Origin: Ancylomarina sp. DW003
GTDB taxonomy: Bacteria > Bacteroidota > Bacteroidia > Bacteroidales > Marinifilaceae
NCBI RefSeq assembly: GCF_029029505.1
Contig: NZ_JAKJSD010000008.1
Span: 1 to 64,000 of the forward strand
Reading direction: 5' to 3'
DNA length: 64,000 nt
Shown: piece by piece, positions 56,289-64,000 of the stretch
Layout: every line of letters begins with the position of its first letter
How positions within the stretch are numbered: the first letter of the stretch is position 1
The notes under the pieces: generated by a model
What the model was told of the DNA's origin: nothing
Databases searched by the model: none
What the model saw: the letters and a program-made list of their open reading frames with translations, nothing else
Translations under genes and position numbers: made by a program

Positions 56289-58197
56289 TTAATTGCTAGT
56301 GCTATATACATCGGCACTAATTAGAGATGCCGGATTTAAATCCATATATGGCAAGGTAAAATAAAAACACGATCCTTCCTTTTCCACAGATTCTACCCAA
56401 ACTTTTCCTCCCATAGATTTTACAAAAGCTCTTGTAATAGATAAGCCAAGTCCTAAACCACCATACTGACGAATATCTGATTCCTGAACTTGTCTGAAAT
56501 TCTCAAAAATTACAGAAAATAAATCCTTTGAAATACCTATTCCCGTATCTCTCACATAAAACTCAATATAATCAGCCTTCTTATAATAGCCAATCTCAAT
56601 TCTACCATCATGAGTAAACTTAATAGCATTATCCATCAACTTTCTGAATATTTTTAACAAATACTGCTTGTCTGCGTACACTGTTTTTACAACTGTACTT
56701 GGAAACAGCATCAACTTCAAGTTCTTTTCTTCAGCCAATACCTTATACTCTTTTTCAATTTTAGACAGTAGTTCGGTAATGTTTACCGCCTCCATTCTAA
56801 TATCGCTATGCCCGGATTGAACTTTAGCAATATCCACAATCTCATTTACAACATTCAATAGTTGATTCGAATTTTCAAAAATGATCTCAATATATCTAGT
56901 TCTATCCTCATCACTCACATCGGGAGAGGCTAAAAATTCTGAAAAACCCAGAATTCCATTCATTGGAGTTCTAATTTCATGCGATATATTACTTAAAAAA
57001 GCGTTTTTCAACTCATCTACTTTTTTAGCATCTTTTTGTGCTTGAATCAGCTCCCTTTTTAATGAATTTTCTTTTTTCGAATAATAGATAAGAAAAAATA
57101 AAAGACCTAAAATGAAGAAACTTCCTGATAATAACAGATACAATGATTTCCTACTTAAATGAACCGAAAAGTTTGGTTTGTTAATAATAGTCCAATCGTT
57201 AGGGAACGATAGTTGGCAATAAATTAGCTTCTTTTAATTCATTATAATCCAAATAGCATTGATTTGGACTCTCTTCCAAAACCGCGATATTTTCTATGGA
57301 CTCGCCCTTAAAAATTCGATCTGCAATTTTCAAAGCCTCCTGAGTTTGTCTGTAGTGATTAATTAAATTACCCCCTACAACTCCCTGTCCCATTCCATGT
57401 TCCCACAAATGATAAACAGGTATATCTGTATTTTTCTTGATATAGCTTAAGCCCTCAAAAAATGGTTTATACTTGAATTCTTTATCTCTGTATTGCGATA
57501 ATAACAACAAAGCTTTATTACCCTTCAATTTCTGTAAGTTCTTTCCAAATTCAGAGAAACTTAGCTCTGATAAATTCAGTGTATGAACATCTATTGCTGC
57601 AGACAAATCTTTAAGACCTAAAACGCGTTTTAAATCCGTTTTTCCCGATATTGTGTTATCACTAACAATAAAAACTTCATCTAGTTTTGAGTTTAAAGTT
57701 TTAGCCAGTTTTATTGTCTCTTTTATGGAGATATCCTCAACTACTCCCGTACAATTCAAATTTAAATTTTGTTCCTTCGCCAATTCTAAATTATTGATTC
57801 CCCAAAAGACAATTGGCTTTGCTTTGAACAAGTCATTCTGATATTTCAAGACATATTCTAAAGCATAATCATCAGCTACCAGAAATAAGTCATAAGCTTT
57901 TCTCTTAGACAGTTTATAGCTCAAAAAATCGTGAAATTGTTTGATGTAAGTTTCATCAACGAACTCTTTACTATTCATAAACTCGACATCAATATGATAA
58001 TGGGTTGAGTCAACAAATTCATTTATCGCTTTCGATGCGTGTATGTAAGTTGGAAAATTACTATTATATGAATGAATTAAACAAATCCGTTTTCGTTTTG
58101 TTTCTCTCAGTTTCTGGCTTTCTGCCTGAACAGGAAACAATAATAAGAGTAAAAAAAGACAACAATAAGAAAAACACAAGCCCTTCTTTTTGTTCAT
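56289..58197 (-). pseudogene. sensor histidine kinase with periplasmic ABC-type binding domain, split by a frameshift
   Basis: Two adjoining frames read as one protein. The first (58197 to 57199, 332 aa from ATG) has a signal peptide and an ABC_sub_bind-type domain (ICLIHSYNSNFPTYIHAS, YDLFLVADDYALEY, KPIVFWGINN, HLWEHGMGQGVVGG) and stops right after LLPTIVP. In the next frame the sequence continues as NDWTIINKPNFSVHLSRK, then a transmembrane helix (LLLSGSFFILGLLFFLIYY), HisKA (LSNISHEIRTPMNGILGF) and HATPase (DNAIKFTHDG, DTGIGIS, GGLGLGLSI). The kinase frame has no ATG of its own, only TTG. Removing one base at the CCC complementary to 57202-57204 restores one frame, and total length then divides by three. 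A true mutation, phase variation or a sequencing error are all possible. Confidence 0.85.
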
Positions 58198-58546
58198 AAT
58201 TAGGTTTTTATATGACATCTTTTTACTTGGGGTTAAGCATAGGTTATTTAAATACGAAGTCCAATTTAATCAATAGCTTCACATTTTCCAAACATTTGAC
58301 GAAAATACACTTTATATCCATAAACATATTTTTTTATCCTGTCAACCATAACAATATATAGATTTACATATCTATTTAATCAAACATATTGCAAGAGCAT
58401 AATTCTATTTAAATAACAACTCTGATCATCTTCTTAGTCATGTCATTTTTCTTTGAAAGATTAAAAATAAAGCTCAAGAACCCTTTAAATAGAGACATAC
58501 AAAACTGAAAGCAATGATTAACAAACCAATAAGTCCGAAAAAAAAC
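58198..58546. other. divergent intergenic region, sensor kinase / metallophosphoesterase
   Basis: About 350 bp, AT-rich, non-coding. It should carry the kinase promoter; no complete minus-strand consensus was found. Confidence 0.4.
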
Positions 58547-60026: not shown

Positions 60027-60066
60027 GACCTTTAGACCTTTAGACCTTTAGACCTTTAGACCTTTA
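60027..60066. repeat. tandem octanucleotide GACCTTTA, five copies
   Basis: Five perfect head-to-tail GACCTTTA units at 60027-60034, 60035-60042, 60043-60050, 60051-60058 and 60059-60066. The last unit supplies the stop codon (TAA, complement of 60064-60066) of the minus-strand phosphatase gene. Confidence 0.95.
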
Positions 60067-61248
60067 AATAAAACTCAGATTCACATCCTTAAGAAACTTT
60101 TCTTCGAGCAAACGAACAACTCGTTTCACAACCGTACGTCTAATCTCTAGCTCAACAGGCAGATTAGGGTCCTGATGTGCAAAGTTGATACGCGTTCCGT
60201 TAATAATAGAGATCTGGTCGCTTTGTAAGAAGTAATGAACAATCTGATCGGCAGGTCCGTCTCCCAATTGGTAATTATTATCGTAGTCTTCTAAAATACG
60301 AGCAACTTTTCCAATCGTTAAAATCCCTTCGGTTACCAAATTAATCCCTTCCATATGTGCAATTGGAGGTAATTCAGGATCGCTAATAGTCATTCCCGGA
60401 GCAAACTTTAAGCCCAATTCTCTCGACACGATTTCAGCTGTAGATCCTCCGCAGATAATTTTCTTTCCCTTAAAGTGATAGATTCTCATTGCCAGTTCAG
60501 AGTCTTTTTCCATTTCGAATGGAGGCCCCGTACACAATAACAACTTACGAGGTTCTCTAAAATAGATTACACCTGCACTGGTGTCATCTTTAGGTTCATC
60601 CTGATCGTTTCTCGAAGCACGCTTCACAATCTTTTTCCCTAATGCATTGGACGATATATAGGGTGTTGATTTAATCAATTGCGTCACAAATTCGACGACA
60701 TTATCCAGCTCCCAACCAAAAGGGTAAGCTTGCGAGCCCATACCTGATTGCATAATACCGTCAGACCAAAAAAGAATACGATCTTCCTTTCGTGCCGTAA
60801 ACTGACAAGTTCTTAAAATCTTTCCTTTGTTCTCTTCACTATCTAATTCAATCGTTTCCCAGCCCGGATCGAATGGTGTTGCACCACGCATCACGACACA
60901 ATCGGGATTATCAAACTCCATAATCCTTGTTGTACCATCGTATTCAATATCAACAATCGTAAAAGTGGAATAACTCACACGCCTCACACTACAAACAGGC
61001 AATGTGTTCATAATAATCTCAGCAATGGTCTTAAAATCCTTATGCTCCATGGTAAAATTCATAGCCATAGATGCCGTTAGTGTGGCCAGAACATTTGCCT
61101 TTACACCACTGCCCATACCATCGCTCAAAATTACAATCGTACGGTTTTCTTCTTTTATACGTCGGGATAAAAAAACATCTCCACAAATCATATCACCATG
61201 GTGAAACAATTGCGGACAGTCTATATCTAAATGAAATTTTTCCTCCAT
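60064..61248 (-). CDS. SpoIIE/PP2C-type phosphatase with a conserved extra C-terminal domain
   Basis: 394 aa. PP2C-like residues: Gly23-Asp24 (MICGDVF), Asp43-Gly44 (LSDGMGSGVKA), Asp163-Gly164 (FWSDGIMQ) and Asp221-Asp222 (KDDTSAGV), so the metal-dependent Ser/Thr phosphatase site is intact. After residue 235 comes a domain of about 160 residues (LLLCTGPPFEMEKD, KIICGGSTAEIVSRELG, ISDPELPPI, VTEGILTIGKVARIL, HQDPNLPVELEIRRTVVK) that I cannot assign. The same domain is present in the paralogue at 63475. It lies 5 bp after the hydrogenase-like sensor and is probably its output, acting on an anti-sigma-factor antagonist or a similar phosphoprotein. Confidence 0.85.
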   Translation of the reverse strand: MEEKFHLDIDCPQLFHHGDMICGDVFLSRRIKEENRTIVILSDGMGSGVKANVLATLTASMAMNFTMEHKDFKTIAEIIMNTLPVCSVRRVSYSTFTIVDIEYDGTTRIMEFDNPDCVVMRGATPFDPGWETIELDSEENKGKILRTCQFTARKEDRILFWSDGIMQSGMGSQAYPFGWELDNVVEFVTQLIKSTPYISSNALGKKIVKRASRNDQDEPKDDTSAGVIYFREPRKLLLCTGPPFEMEKDSELAMRIYHFKGKKIICGGSTAEIVSRELGLKFAPGMTISDPELPPIAHMEGINLVTEGILTIGKVARILEDYDNNYQLGDGPADQIVHYFLQSDQISIINGTRINFAHQDPNLPVELEIRRTVVKRVVRLLEEKFLKDVNLSFI

Positions 61249-61253
61249 AGGGA

Positions 61254-63092
61254 CTACTCTTCAGTGGTGTGAGACTTAATAATTGAATTCAATATCTTCT
61301 CTGTTTTAGAGGCTGATTCACCCAACAAAAAGGCAATTTGCTGTACCGTTTGCAAGTTCTCTTTAATCACATCGCGAGCTCGGCCAATCACCTCTTCTTT
61401 TCTCACTTCGGGAGCATATAAATCTCGAATTATACCACCTACAACCTTATTTTTCTTAATCGTAAAGACAGAAACATTGAATAGTCGGCTACCAAAGTGA
61501 ACATCCTTCTTCAGAATATCTTCTCCATTCATCAGAACGGTTGAGAACAGACGATGGAAAGGCACAACCTTAGACAAATCGGCATCAACCAAACCTGGAA
61601 TAATTTCGTTCAACATTTGCGTTTCTTCACCCAGCAGGTTCACAAAACTATTGTTGGATTCTATAATTTTAAGGTCTTCATTTACGATAACCACACCAGT
61701 CGGTAACTTTTGTAGCATAGCCGAAATGGTTTCACTAGCCTCAACCGCCAATCGGTGTTCCTCTTTAGCTTGCGCCTCTGATTCCTTTAAGGCAACCTTA
61801 GTCTGGTTGAGTTTGTCGTTGGTTTCGCCCAATTTCTTGATATAGGCATTCATGTTTTTGATAGTCACCGAAGAGCATTGCTCAAACTTGGCTATTCCCT
61901 GAACCTTAGCTTCAGCAAATTTCTTACAGGTTTCGTAACCACAAGATCCGCAACCCAACTGTTCTTCAATCTTACCTTTACCCATTTCGTTCAAAACTTC
62001 CTGAACTTCTTCTTCTGTTGGAACAGGTAAACGTTGATCCTTTACAGCAAATTTTCGGGATAAATCGATATGCTTATAAGTATCTATTTCTTTCTGCCAC
62101 TCTTTCTCATCGAAAGTATTCAAGCGCTTACGCACATATTGCAAAACCTGCGAACGACGTGAAAACTTACGCCCACCTTTCGATGTTCCGGCTCCCATAA
62201 TACAGCCTTCACAATAGAACAAATCGAGATGTTGATTAAGCTCCTCACTTCTGTTAAACTCTTCGAGAGAGCGCAAGAAGTTGTTTCGTCCCTCGGTACT
62301 AATAATATTGCCTCGTAGCATGCTATTATCTATTTCAGCCGCCTGAAATAAACCATGACTCATTGGGAAAAGACCTCCAATTCGGGCAAAAGGTGGATCA
62401 AATTCTGAAAATTCGACTTTCTTTTCCCGTATATTATTCTCTTTAAAAAGCTTTCTTAATTCAAAAAAGCTCAAAACCGCCTGAATTGCCCCGTCACTCT
62501 TATTAAAAAATTTCACATCGTCCTTACTAGGTACGCAGGGCGAAAGCGAAACGATCTTAACATCTTGCCCGTACTTCTCGCGAACCACCTTTGCCATGGC
62601 AATAATTGGGTTCACTATAGGAGCTAAATTCTCTACCAAATCGGGATAGTAACGCTCCACATGGTTGACAAGTGCAGGACATTTGGTTGACAGGTAGTAT
62701 TTACCATGAAAATTATTGAAAAGCTCTTTATACTTAAAGGCAACCAAATCGGCTCCAAAAGCTGCTTCAACCACATAATCGAAACCCAATTCGCGAATCA
62801 TACCTACAAAGCGTCGATAATCATTAATGTCGTCGAATTCACCCGAAATACTCGGATCGCAAATCGCAACAACTTTTTCATCGCGTTTGAGCAATTCCTT
62901 AACGTAATCTTCTTCGTTGCGATACTCAATAGCATCTTGCGCACACATGGTCACACAATTGCCACAACCAATACAACGGTTGGCAATAATATGAGCATGA
63001 TTATCTTCTATTTTTATGGCTTTGGCCGGACAAACCCGGATACAGGTGTAGCTCAGGTTACATTTGTCCTTATTTACGGTAATCAGTTGCAT
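61254..63092 (-). CDS. sensory [FeFe]-hydrogenase-like protein with PAS domain
   Basis: 612 aa. Order: N-terminal ferredoxin region (Cys11, 17, 21 and Cys40, 43, 46, 50; residue 14, where a fourth Cys would stand, is Ser), hydrogenase H-cluster-type domain, a second FeS domain with Cys381, 384, 389 and 406 (CGSCGYETC), a coiled coil (about 415-450) and a PAS domain (about 455-570). Cluster-ligand Cys are at 138 (STKCPA), 186 (SLSPCVPSK), 294 and 297 (YCEGC). The canonical TSCCP proton-relay Cys is Lys137. This matches group C (HydS-type) putative H2 sensors, which have PAS outputs and PP2C phosphatase neighbours. Soluble; H2 or redox state is the likely signal. Confidence 0.85.
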   Translation of the reverse strand: MQLITVNKDKCNLSYTCIRVCPAKAIKIEDNHAHIIANRCIGCGNCVTMCAQDAIEYRNEEDYVKELLKRDEKVVAICDPSISGEFDDINDYRRFVGMIRELGFDYVVEAAFGADLVAFKYKELFNNFHGKYYLSTKCPALVNHVERYYPDLVENLAPIVNPIIAMAKVVREKYGQDVKIVSLSPCVPSKDDVKFFNKSDGAIQAVLSFFELRKLFKENNIREKKVEFSEFDPPFARIGGLFPMSHGLFQAAEIDNSMLRGNIISTEGRNNFLRSLEEFNRSEELNQHLDLFYCEGCIMGAGTSKGGRKFSRRSQVLQYVRKRLNTFDEKEWQKEIDTYKHIDLSRKFAVKDQRLPVPTEEEVQEVLNEMGKGKIEEQLGCGSCGYETCKKFAEAKVQGIAKFEQCSSVTIKNMNAYIKKLGETNDKLNQTKVALKESEAQAKEEHRLAVEASETISAMLQKLPTGVVIVNEDLKIIESNNSFVNLLGEETQMLNEIIPGLVDADLSKVVPFHRLFSTVLMNGEDILKKDVHFGSRLFNVSVFTIKKNKVVGGIIRDLYAPEVRKEEVIGRARDVIKENLQTVQQIAFLLGESASKTEKILNSIIKSHTTEE

Positions 63093-63140
63093 GGGGCTGC
63101 GATTTTAGGTTAAGGGCTGTGGTTTGTAAAGCCTGTTTTT

Positions 63141-63392
63141 CTAAGCTTTTTCGAAAACTTTGTTCAGTATGTCGATAGCGCCTTCGGAATCAACTTCCTG
63201 ATACAATTCTTCCTCTATTTTTAAAATTGGGCCTTTAGAACAGTTGCCTGTACAAAGTTCGCCATGAAAAAACACCAAGTCGTTTAGATTATTCTTATCA
63301 AAAAATTCCTTTACGGCTTGCAATGTTTTACCATTACCTCTTGAAAAACAAGAACTACCCAAACAAATGGTAACATCTTTTTTATCACTCAT
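63141..63392 (-). CDS. thioredoxin-like [2Fe-2S] ferredoxin (NuoE/HydC type)
   Basis: 83 aa. Cluster cysteines in CLGSSCFSRGN (Cx4C) and CTGNCSKGP (Cx3C), the spacing of NuoE-type thioredoxin-like ferredoxins. It lies 48 bp before the hydrogenase-like sensor and probably passes electrons to or from it. No diaphorase partner (NuoF/HydB) is in the window, so it is not part of a catalytic electron-bifurcating hydrogenase here. Confidence 0.88.
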   Translation of the reverse strand: MSDKKDVTICLGSSCFSRGNGKTLQAVKEFFDKNNLNDLVFFHGELCTGNCSKGPILKIEEELYQEVDSEGAIDILNKVFEKA

Positions 63393-63474
63393 TGTTTATT
63401 TGTTTTGTGTTTTGATTTTTATGTGGAGGTCCTTAGATTTCAAACTAATTTTTCCTCTAAAAGCCTACCAACTC

Positions 63475-64000
63475 CTAAATATAGCTAAGATCTACATCTT
63501 TCAAAAACTTTTCCTCCAAAAGCGCTGCGATGTTTTTAACCACCGTTCTGCGAATTTCCAACTCAACCGGAAGATTAGGATCCTGATGTGCTACGTTTAT
63601 CTTAGTCCCGTTGATAATTTCAATGTGATCACTCTCCAAAAGATGCTTCACAATCTGATCGGCAGGCCCCTGTCTTAATACCGTATTCTGATTGTAATCT
63701 TTAAGCAAGCGTTGCACTTTTCCCAAGGTCAGAATGCCTTCGGTAAGCAAATCAACACCTTTTAAAAAGGATATTGGAGGTAATTCAGGATCAGTAATCG
63801 TCATATCGATTTTCAGCTCTTCACCAAACTCACGCGAAAGAATACTAGCCGTTGTGCCACCACAAGCAATCTTTTTTCCCTTAAATTCATTCACCTGATT
63901 GGCTAGCTGAGCATCCTTCGATTTACTGTATGGAGGTCCTGTACACAAAAGGAGATCCCTTGGTTCCCGCAAGTAAACCACTGCACAGGAGGTATCGTCT
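63475..64000 (-). CDS. second SpoIIE/PP2C-type phosphatase paralogue (partial, runs off the window)
   Basis: The frame stays open to position 64000, so only the C-terminal 174 or so codons are seen. It begins DDTSCAVVYLREP, the last PP2C motif, and continues with the same C-terminal domain as the phosphatase at 60064 (LLLCTGPPYSKSKD, KIACGGTTASILSREFG, ITDPELPPI, AHQDPNLPVELEIRRTVVK), about two-thirds identical by eye. The gene is upstream of the [2Fe-2S] and hydrogenase-like genes in the same direction, so two related phosphatases bracket the sensor. Confidence 0.88.
   Translation of the reverse strand, partial: DDTSCAVVYLREPRDLLLCTGPPYSKSKDAQLANQVNEFKGKKIACGGTTASILSREFGEELKIDMTITDPELPPISFLKGVDLLTEGILTLGKVQRLLKDYNQNTVLRQGPADQIVKHLLESDHIEIINGTKINVAHQDPNLPVELEIRRTVVKNIAALLEEKFLKDVDLSYI

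Follow-up and report, generated by a model that had tools for sequence, protein, structure and literature searches.

Organization of the locus

The first 64,000 bases of contig C69 of Ancylomarina sp. DW003 (NZ_JAKJSD010000008.1; 200,229 bases in a genome of 4.84 Mb and 70 contigs), hereafter the window (C69:1-64000), end within an operon that encodes hydrogenase-like sensors and SpoIIE/PP2C-type phosphatases. Read past the window end, the operon is composed of five genes on one strand, in the order HydS2, phosphatase B, [2Fe-2S] protein, HydS1 and phosphatase A, which are separated by 97, 82, 48 and 5 bases, respectively:

60064..61248, minus strand: phosphatase A (PPA), 394 amino acids (aa); SpoIIE/PP2C catalytic domain (about residues 1-232) and C-terminal alpha/beta domain (about 235-394)
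61254..63092, minus strand: HydS1, hydrogenase-like sensor, 612 aa; probable chimera, as judged from Pfam, trees and motifs
63141..63392, minus strand: [2Fe-2S] thioredoxin-like protein, 83 aa; Pfam 2Fe-2S_thioredx, E 2.4e-8
63475..64000 in the window (C-terminal part; whole gene C69:63475-64659), minus strand: phosphatase B (PPB), 394 aa
C69:64757-66484, outside the window, minus strand: HydS2, second hydrogenase-like sensor, directly upstream of PPB

A preliminary description of the window had placed four open reading frames with short gaps at these positions on the minus strand, which is borne out, PPB running off the window end; the paralogy that it proposed for the two phosphatases also holds, as they are 58% identical over 394 aa. 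It had further seen the two paralogues as grouped around one sensor, with opposing or sequential outputs. The two phosphatases do flank HydS1; however, HydS2 directly precedes PPB past the edge, so that a lone sensor flanked by two phosphatases is seen only because the window stops there, and no evidence of opposing or sequential outputs was found, both phosphatases keeping D43, D163, D221 and D222. Contradicted by the gene order, a single sensor with two phosphatases is highly improbable. Instead, two sensor-phosphatase pairs stand in tandem here, each phosphatase with its own sensor.

The recurrence of such pairs in relatives also speaks against one sensor serving two phosphatases. In a sample of 295 genomes of the order, in which HydS1 matches were listed to about E 1e-116, at least 85 genomes carry a full-length HydS1, and 77 of the 85 HydS1 among the matches listed are followed by a phosphatase on the same strand within 400 bases, with a median gap of 29 bases between the matched segments. 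Conversely, 104 of 118 phosphatase matches (99 genomes of the order) have a listed sensor directly upstream. Homologues without a phosphatase, which the preliminary description had named as a point against the linkage, do exist marginally: eight of the 85 listed HydS1 have none within 400 bases downstream, though a phosphatase at E <= 1e-50 is encoded somewhere in 84 of the 85 genomes. For HydS2, the pair is found in 27 of the 30 HydS2-type matches listed in the order (23 close, 1 fragment and 6 distant, the last at about 31% identity). Of the other three, two (in genomes G075 and G187) are followed by a more weakly matching SpoIIE homologue (L118 and L120), and the third, in G168, sits at the end of a contig.

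HydS1 is 92% identical to its counterpart in Ancylomarina salipaludis. The TTG start listed for HydS2 (L007:6758-8485) is probably not real; in the closest relatives the gene starts at an ATG three codons later. Scans for promoters (22 sites, 18.1 expected) and terminators (4, 5.5 expected) were uninformative.

Domains and active-site residues of HydS1

HydS1 matches the Pfam families Fe_hyd_lg_C (E 3.3e-36) and FeS (E 3.1e-8) and a ferredoxin domain, and gives no HisKA or HATPase match. Apart from the ferredoxin domain, it can be divided into four zones:

62163..62885, minus strand: H-cluster-type head, about residues 70-310, with K137 and C138, C186 and S189 (at the place of K358 in CpI), and C294-x2-C297; from alignments
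61875..61958, minus strand: FeS motif Cx2Cx4Cx16C, formed by C381, C384, C389 and C406
61743..61874, minus strand: coil, about residues 407-450, like the coil of kinase-linked relatives and missing in HydS2; one long helix (407-461) in the AlphaFold2 (AF2) model
61257..61742, minus strand: PAS-like tail, about residues 451-612; from PAS matches below the cut-offs, AF2 and the tail tree

Pfam thus confirms most of the domains named in the preliminary description (SpoIIE in both phosphatases, 2Fe-2S_thioredx, Fe_hyd_lg_C, ferredoxin and FeS), while PAS is matched only below the curated cut-offs. The order of strands and helices at residues 466-557 of the AF2 model is PAS-like.

We compared the cluster-binding motifs of 49 distinct HydS1, 40 HydS2 and 8 kinase-linked sequences. 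The seven ferredoxin cysteines examined are kept in all three sets, as is the FeS motif Cx2Cx4Cx16C (49/49, 40/40 and 8/8), which lies between head and PAS. Loop 3 has the form C-x2-C in 47 of the 49 HydS1 and in all 8 kinase-linked sequences, and C-x3-C in all 40 HydS2. The loop-2 lysine at the place of CpI K358 is absent from every HydS1 (0/49), whereas it is present in 39 of 40 HydS2 (Arg in the remaining one) and in 8/8 kinase-linked sequences. We take this lysine to be one of the residues that hydrogen-bond the [2Fe] cofactor, K358 of CpI presumably contacting a cyanide of the [2Fe] site; a literature search for this contact returned no paper. HydS1 carries Ser (28), Ala (17), Val (2), Asn (1) or Gly (1) in its stead, and the residue that follows is still basic (Lys 43, Arg 5, His 1).

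Alternatively, the HydS1 head could be degenerate and serve only to hold ferredoxin domain and PAS tail together as a scaffold, with no cluster at the former active site involved in signalling. Two sequences point this way: the HydS1 of locus L022 is devoid of one of the four cubane cysteines and that of L025 of all four, with the ferredoxin and FeS cysteines intact in both; each is, however, a single assembly, and the other 47 of the 49 HydS1 keep all four. Moreover, in four Ancylomarina-like genomes the nonsynonymous divergence (dN) of the HydS1 head (0.057) is much like that of the HydS2 head (0.063), dN alone being used because synonymous sites were saturated for most regions; such conservation suggests that the HydS1 head is under selection, and we regard the scaffold as decidedly unlikely. 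The L025 gene (L025:1474-3420, genome G028) still has a phosphatase and offers a natural test case of a head without a cluster.

HydS2 and the phosphatases

The preliminary description had noted that group C [FeFe] hydrogenases occur with Ser/Thr phosphatases, and this is indeed a known kind in the HydDB table (group C3). HydS2 looks like an ordinary member of it, as judged from its residues and its neighbour. The loop cysteines equivalent to C300, C355, C499 and C503 of CpI, in a numbering that is in part assumed, are found in all 40 HydS2, that of the window genome included, and the latter carries the loop-2 lysine as well as Ala and Gly at both places where Thermotoga maritima HydS has Ala and Gly. 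HydS2 is encoded with a SpoIIE/PP2C phosphatase, PPB lying directly downstream.

Both phosphatases are SpoIIE/RsbX-like in sequence and predicted catalytic fold. PPA scores over the Pfam cut-off for SpoIIE (E 5.1e-10), its AF2 model has a predicted local distance difference test (pLDDT) score of 87.9, and Foldseek matches this model to SpoIIE (5mqh, E 1.5e-13). D43, D163, D221 and D222, which we take to be the PP2C metal ligands, are invariant in 53/53 phosphatase rows. The C-terminal domain (about residues 235-394; window 60067-60546 for PPA) has no Pfam match but is conserved from Bacteroidales to Ruminococcus and well modelled by AF2 except at about 351-370. It has in common with Ruminococcus albus, Monoglobus and Acetoanaerobium the residues G241-P-P243, C266-G267, T306-E-G308 and N355/H358. 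The best Foldseek match of PPA outside the PP2C fold, methylglyoxal synthase (1vmd, E 0.0099), probably falls on this domain, which may be a site for a ligand or a partner.

Head, tail and phosphatase trees

Trees of the heads (58 rows), tails and phosphatases, with support given as ultrafast bootstrap/Shimodaira-Hasegawa-like approximate likelihood ratio test, disagree on the relatives of HydS1. HydS1 heads form one group with the heads linked to histidine kinases (100/98.7). A clade of HydS1 and HydS2 heads is rejected (p 7.1e-6), and still so (p 1.0e-4) in a trimmed tree from which the ferredoxin part, the three cluster loops and three group D-like rows were taken out; a clade of HydS1, HydS2, clostridial C3 and related heads, that is, all non-kinase group C rows, is rejected as well (p 0.004). 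HydS2 stands beside the clostridial C3 heads with weak support (71/48). In contrast, the tails of HydS1 and HydS2 fall in one group, apart from clostridial and other tails (100/98.5), as do the phosphatases of the HydS1 and HydS2 units, apart from the clostridial ones (99/98). The stretch that follows the FeS motif is also longer in HydS1 (196-215 residues in 19 sequences of the tail-tree set) than in HydS2 (166-178 in 16), and the extra helix resembles, by eye, the coil that precedes HisKA in the kinase-linked proteins. Because its head groups with kinase-linked heads, and its tail and phosphatase with the HydS2 output, HydS1 looks like a chimera, which is the simplest reading of these trees: a kinase-type head placed on a phosphatase-type output, with a junction near residues 445-451.

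The same trees bear on a rival history, in which the two sensors belong to one type, both detect H2 in the ordinary way and arose by a recent tandem duplication that widened the range of H2 concentrations sensed. The two proteins share their domain order, both keep the four cubane cysteines, and within this genome their PAS tails are 52% and their phosphatases 58% identical. Their heads are, however, only 28% identical, the loop-2 lysine is missing from HydS1 throughout, and a clade uniting the tandem copies is rejected for head (p 1.5e-5), tail (p 1.4e-4) and phosphatase (p 5.9e-4). We therefore rejected recent tandem duplication as the origin of the pair and hold this history to be unlikely. 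Gene conversion between the pairs, suggested by the higher identity of the tails than of the heads, was likewise rejected, the tandem copies being sisters in none of the three trees. The tail and phosphatase of the tandem HydS2 units are nearer to those of HydS1 than to those of other HydS2 (95/91 and 98/100, respectively); a clade of tandem and other HydS2 is not rejected for either (p 0.08 for the tail, 0.18 for the phosphatase).

Distribution in relatives

All five genes lie on one strand in 19 of the 50 HydS1 loci analysed, and these 19 all belong to Marinifilaceae: Ancylomarina, Marinifilum, Labilibaculum, members assigned to the family only and the window's own. In 13 of these loci, the reading frames of HydS1 and phosphatase A share one base. 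A homologue of the [2Fe-2S] protein is found at 43 of the 50 HydS1 loci, some of which are incomplete. Among the matches listed, both sensor types occur in 17 of the 295 genomes (in one via the distant type), and within 12 kb on one contig only in the window's own. Across the phylum, only 5 of 395 sampled genomes have the phosphatase at E <= 1e-60, the window's own included. In a close relative (L042:5266-6335), 1,068 bases separate HydS2 from phosphatase B, whereas this gap measures 3-252 bases at the remaining 18 tandem loci. Two HydS2-phosphatase pairs in tandem on one strand are found in a further genome of the order (G110:C11:16689-23837).

Kinase-linked sensors often lie near HydS1. Matches were assigned to the kinase type by match range and frame length, the kinase domains being checked with Pfam in 2 relatives and a HisKA-like motif seen in 8. 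At least 36 genomes of the order have both HydS1 and a kinase-type sensor. At least 30 of the 64 kinase-type matches listed lie within 12 kb of HydS1 on the same contig, and in all 30 pairs the two are on opposite strands, 4.4-5.0 kb apart. At one such locus (L065:1236-11088), HydA and a HydB-like gene are found between HydS1 and the kinase-type sensor. In many relatives, then, a kinase on one side and a phosphatase-linked sensor on the other, their heads related, seem to enclose a hydrogenase of the bifurcating type. The kinase-linked head was not found among the six Fe_hyd_lg_C matches of the window genome, as judged by frame length. Since histidine kinases and PP2C phosphatases act on different residues, no shared phosphosite is expected.

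Other genes of the genome

The genome encodes catalytic hydrogenases on other contigs, namely two HydABC-type sets (C11 and C45) and one group B-like enzyme (C30). None is adjacent to the operon, in agreement with the preliminary description, and HydS1 as a subunit of a catalytic hydrogenase encoded just upstream, a possibility which that description had raised, was rejected on this ground. Of the further genes that it proposed to look for past position 64,000, the maturases HydF and HydG, the two searched for, are both present in the genome, and no STAS or RsbW gene is found in the operon. Genome-wide there are three STAS matches, the sole free-standing one on C70, and short RsbW-like proteins on C4 and C11, none of them near the operon.

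C11 also encodes a 453-aa hydrogenase-like protein without a PAS match, probably group D-like by its architecture. It lies in a stretch (L008:3957-12332) that carries, in order, DRTGG, an RsbW-like ATPase, the 453-aa protein, a short gene, PHP, HATPase and then genes of the hydABC type: a distinct regulatory set next to a catalytic hydrogenase.

The window does contain a histidine kinase, contrary to the preliminary description: the minus-strand gene 56289-57143, about 3 kb from the cluster, encodes HisKA and HATPase_c, and no tie to the operon was seen. It directly follows a substrate-binding-like gene (57199-58218, also on the minus strand), whose match is under the Pfam cut-off; the same two-part split is found in L041 and L043.

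Proposed mechanism

We propose, with a probability of roughly 0.6, that the locus is a tandem of pairs of the C3 kind in which HydS2 senses H2 or the state of its H-cluster, the chimeric HydS1 responds mainly to redox, and both signal through similar SpoIIE-type phosphatases. The domain order and the conflict between the trees are read directly from the sequences, and from them we infer the functional steps that follow. Electrons would enter the heads via the ferredoxin domains, from the ferredoxin pool of the cell or from the small [2Fe-2S] protein. HydS2 would respond to H2 at the H-cluster as well, and HydS1 would report mainly the redox state because its [2Fe] site is presumably altered or absent. 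The FeS domain and the helix would relay the change to the PAS tail, which would control the SpoIIE-type phosphatase encoded directly downstream. The phosphatase would in turn dephosphorylate Ser/Thr of a regulator and so adjust fermentative or hydrogenase genes elsewhere in the genome.

Several points weigh against this proposal. The lack of a STAS or RsbW gene in the operon leaves it without a partner-switching target, the PAS families match both HydS1 and HydS2 with scores under the Pfam cut-offs, and the cubane cysteines kept in nearly all HydS1 leave room for an H-cluster. As to the chimera, the group of HydS1 and kinase-linked heads reaches 93/97 in the trimmed tree and is not starred there, and the head may have moved in either direction, since the test allows all kinase-linked heads to form one clade (p 0.09). 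The clades were named after the first tree had been seen, and some outgroup rows of the tail and phosphatase trees gave long-branch warnings. The regular expression for the coil motif proved too loose (44/49 HydS1, 8/8 kinase-linked and 18/40 HydS2), so that the coil rests on length and alignment.

A bolder scenario is possible, though we hold it to be doubtful. HydS1 would be a former hydrogenase head that no longer senses H2 and reads the redox state of ferredoxin with a cubane-only or altered cluster, and would have arisen by the fusion of a histidine-kinase head with a PAS-phosphatase output. Kinase and phosphatase-linked sensor, which have related heads and stand back to back around a bifurcating hydrogenase in many Bacteroidales, would set its expression from two sides, and in Marinifilaceae the HydS2 pair would have replaced the kinase partner.

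A natural swap of heads between kinase and phosphatase outputs, if true, would tell the input part of these proteins from the output part, and the missing loop-2 lysine provides a direct test of whether a hydrogenase-like sensor works without a normal [2Fe] site. The C-terminal domain of the phosphatases, common to R. albus, is a defined candidate for the contact with the sensor or for a ligand site.

Comparison with known systems

In HydDB, [FeFe] group C3 is described as "phosphatase-linked (putative)", with its role undetermined (PMC5037454). As here, a hydrogenase-like sensor adjoins a Ser/Thr phosphatase, and HydS2 fits this group by its cysteines and its neighbour. HydS1 departs from it, since its head groups with kinase-linked heads instead, whereas its tail and phosphatase are C3-like; in addition, two units stand in tandem here. 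The kinase-linked relatives, whose architecture is Fe_hyd_lg_C, FeS, HisKA and HATPase (Pfam, L065 and L074), probably correspond to the histidine-kinase-linked group C1 of HydDB. Compared with them, HydS1 carries a PAS-like tail where they have the kinase domain, is partnered by a phosphatase and is devoid of the loop-2 lysine.

The closest parallels in gene order are found in Ruminococcus albus 7 and Monoglobus. The R. albus plasmid pRUMAL01 (L124) carries genes for [2Fe-2S] proteins, HydS, a SpoIIE phosphatase and a further hydrogenase-like protein, and Monoglobus has [2Fe-2S], HydS, SpoIIE phosphatase and hydrogenase-like genes, in both cases in this order, the first three being arranged as here. 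R. albus HydS and HydS2 are 31.6% identical; the phosphatase of R. albus is 30-32% identical to PPA and PPB over nearly the whole length, C-terminal domain included. In R. albus, the stretch fetched holds one unit, beside adhE, Rex and the further hydrogenase-like gene, none of which is adjacent to the operon of the window. The R. albus cluster with the sensory hydrogenase is reported to fall 111-fold in co-culture, which lends the mechanism indirect support.

Further support, again indirect, comes from hfsABCD of Thermoanaerobacterium, in which HfsB is a PAS-containing hydrogenase, HfsC is similar to serine phosphatases and HfsA is described as partly hydrogenase-like; when hfsA or hfsB is deleted, the fermentation products change, as do ethanol yield and adhE expression (PMC5707799, PMC11837493). 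Unlike the present operon, hfsABCD includes a catalytic hydrogenase, HfsD; we draw the likeness from these descriptions. As HydDB leaves the role of C3 undetermined and these deletions redirect fermentation, the passage of the signal from sensor to phosphatase deserves attention.

Thermotoga maritima HydS combines a sensory head, [4Fe-4S] clusters and PAS; HydS2 shares with it Ala at C299 and Gly at M353, and the residues hydrogen-bonding the [2Fe] cofactor are stated to be conserved in sensory enzymes (PMC10055695). HydS1 differs in having no loop-2 lysine. The FeS motif Cx2Cx4Cx16C is that described for a sensory PAS-containing [FeFe] hydrogenase (M2f; PMC8163306). With SpoIIE, RsbX and RsbU, the phosphatases share the catalytic fold and sequence; they differ by the extra C-terminal domain and by an operon without STAS or RsbW. 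Searches of a literature library with limited subscription coverage, most hits being judged from their listing, turned up no published account of a comparable chimera or of sensor-phosphatase pairs in tandem. The phosphatase-linked sensory hydrogenase is thus a known kind, and the new part lies in HydS1 and in its tandem with a conventional HydS2 in Marinifilaceae.

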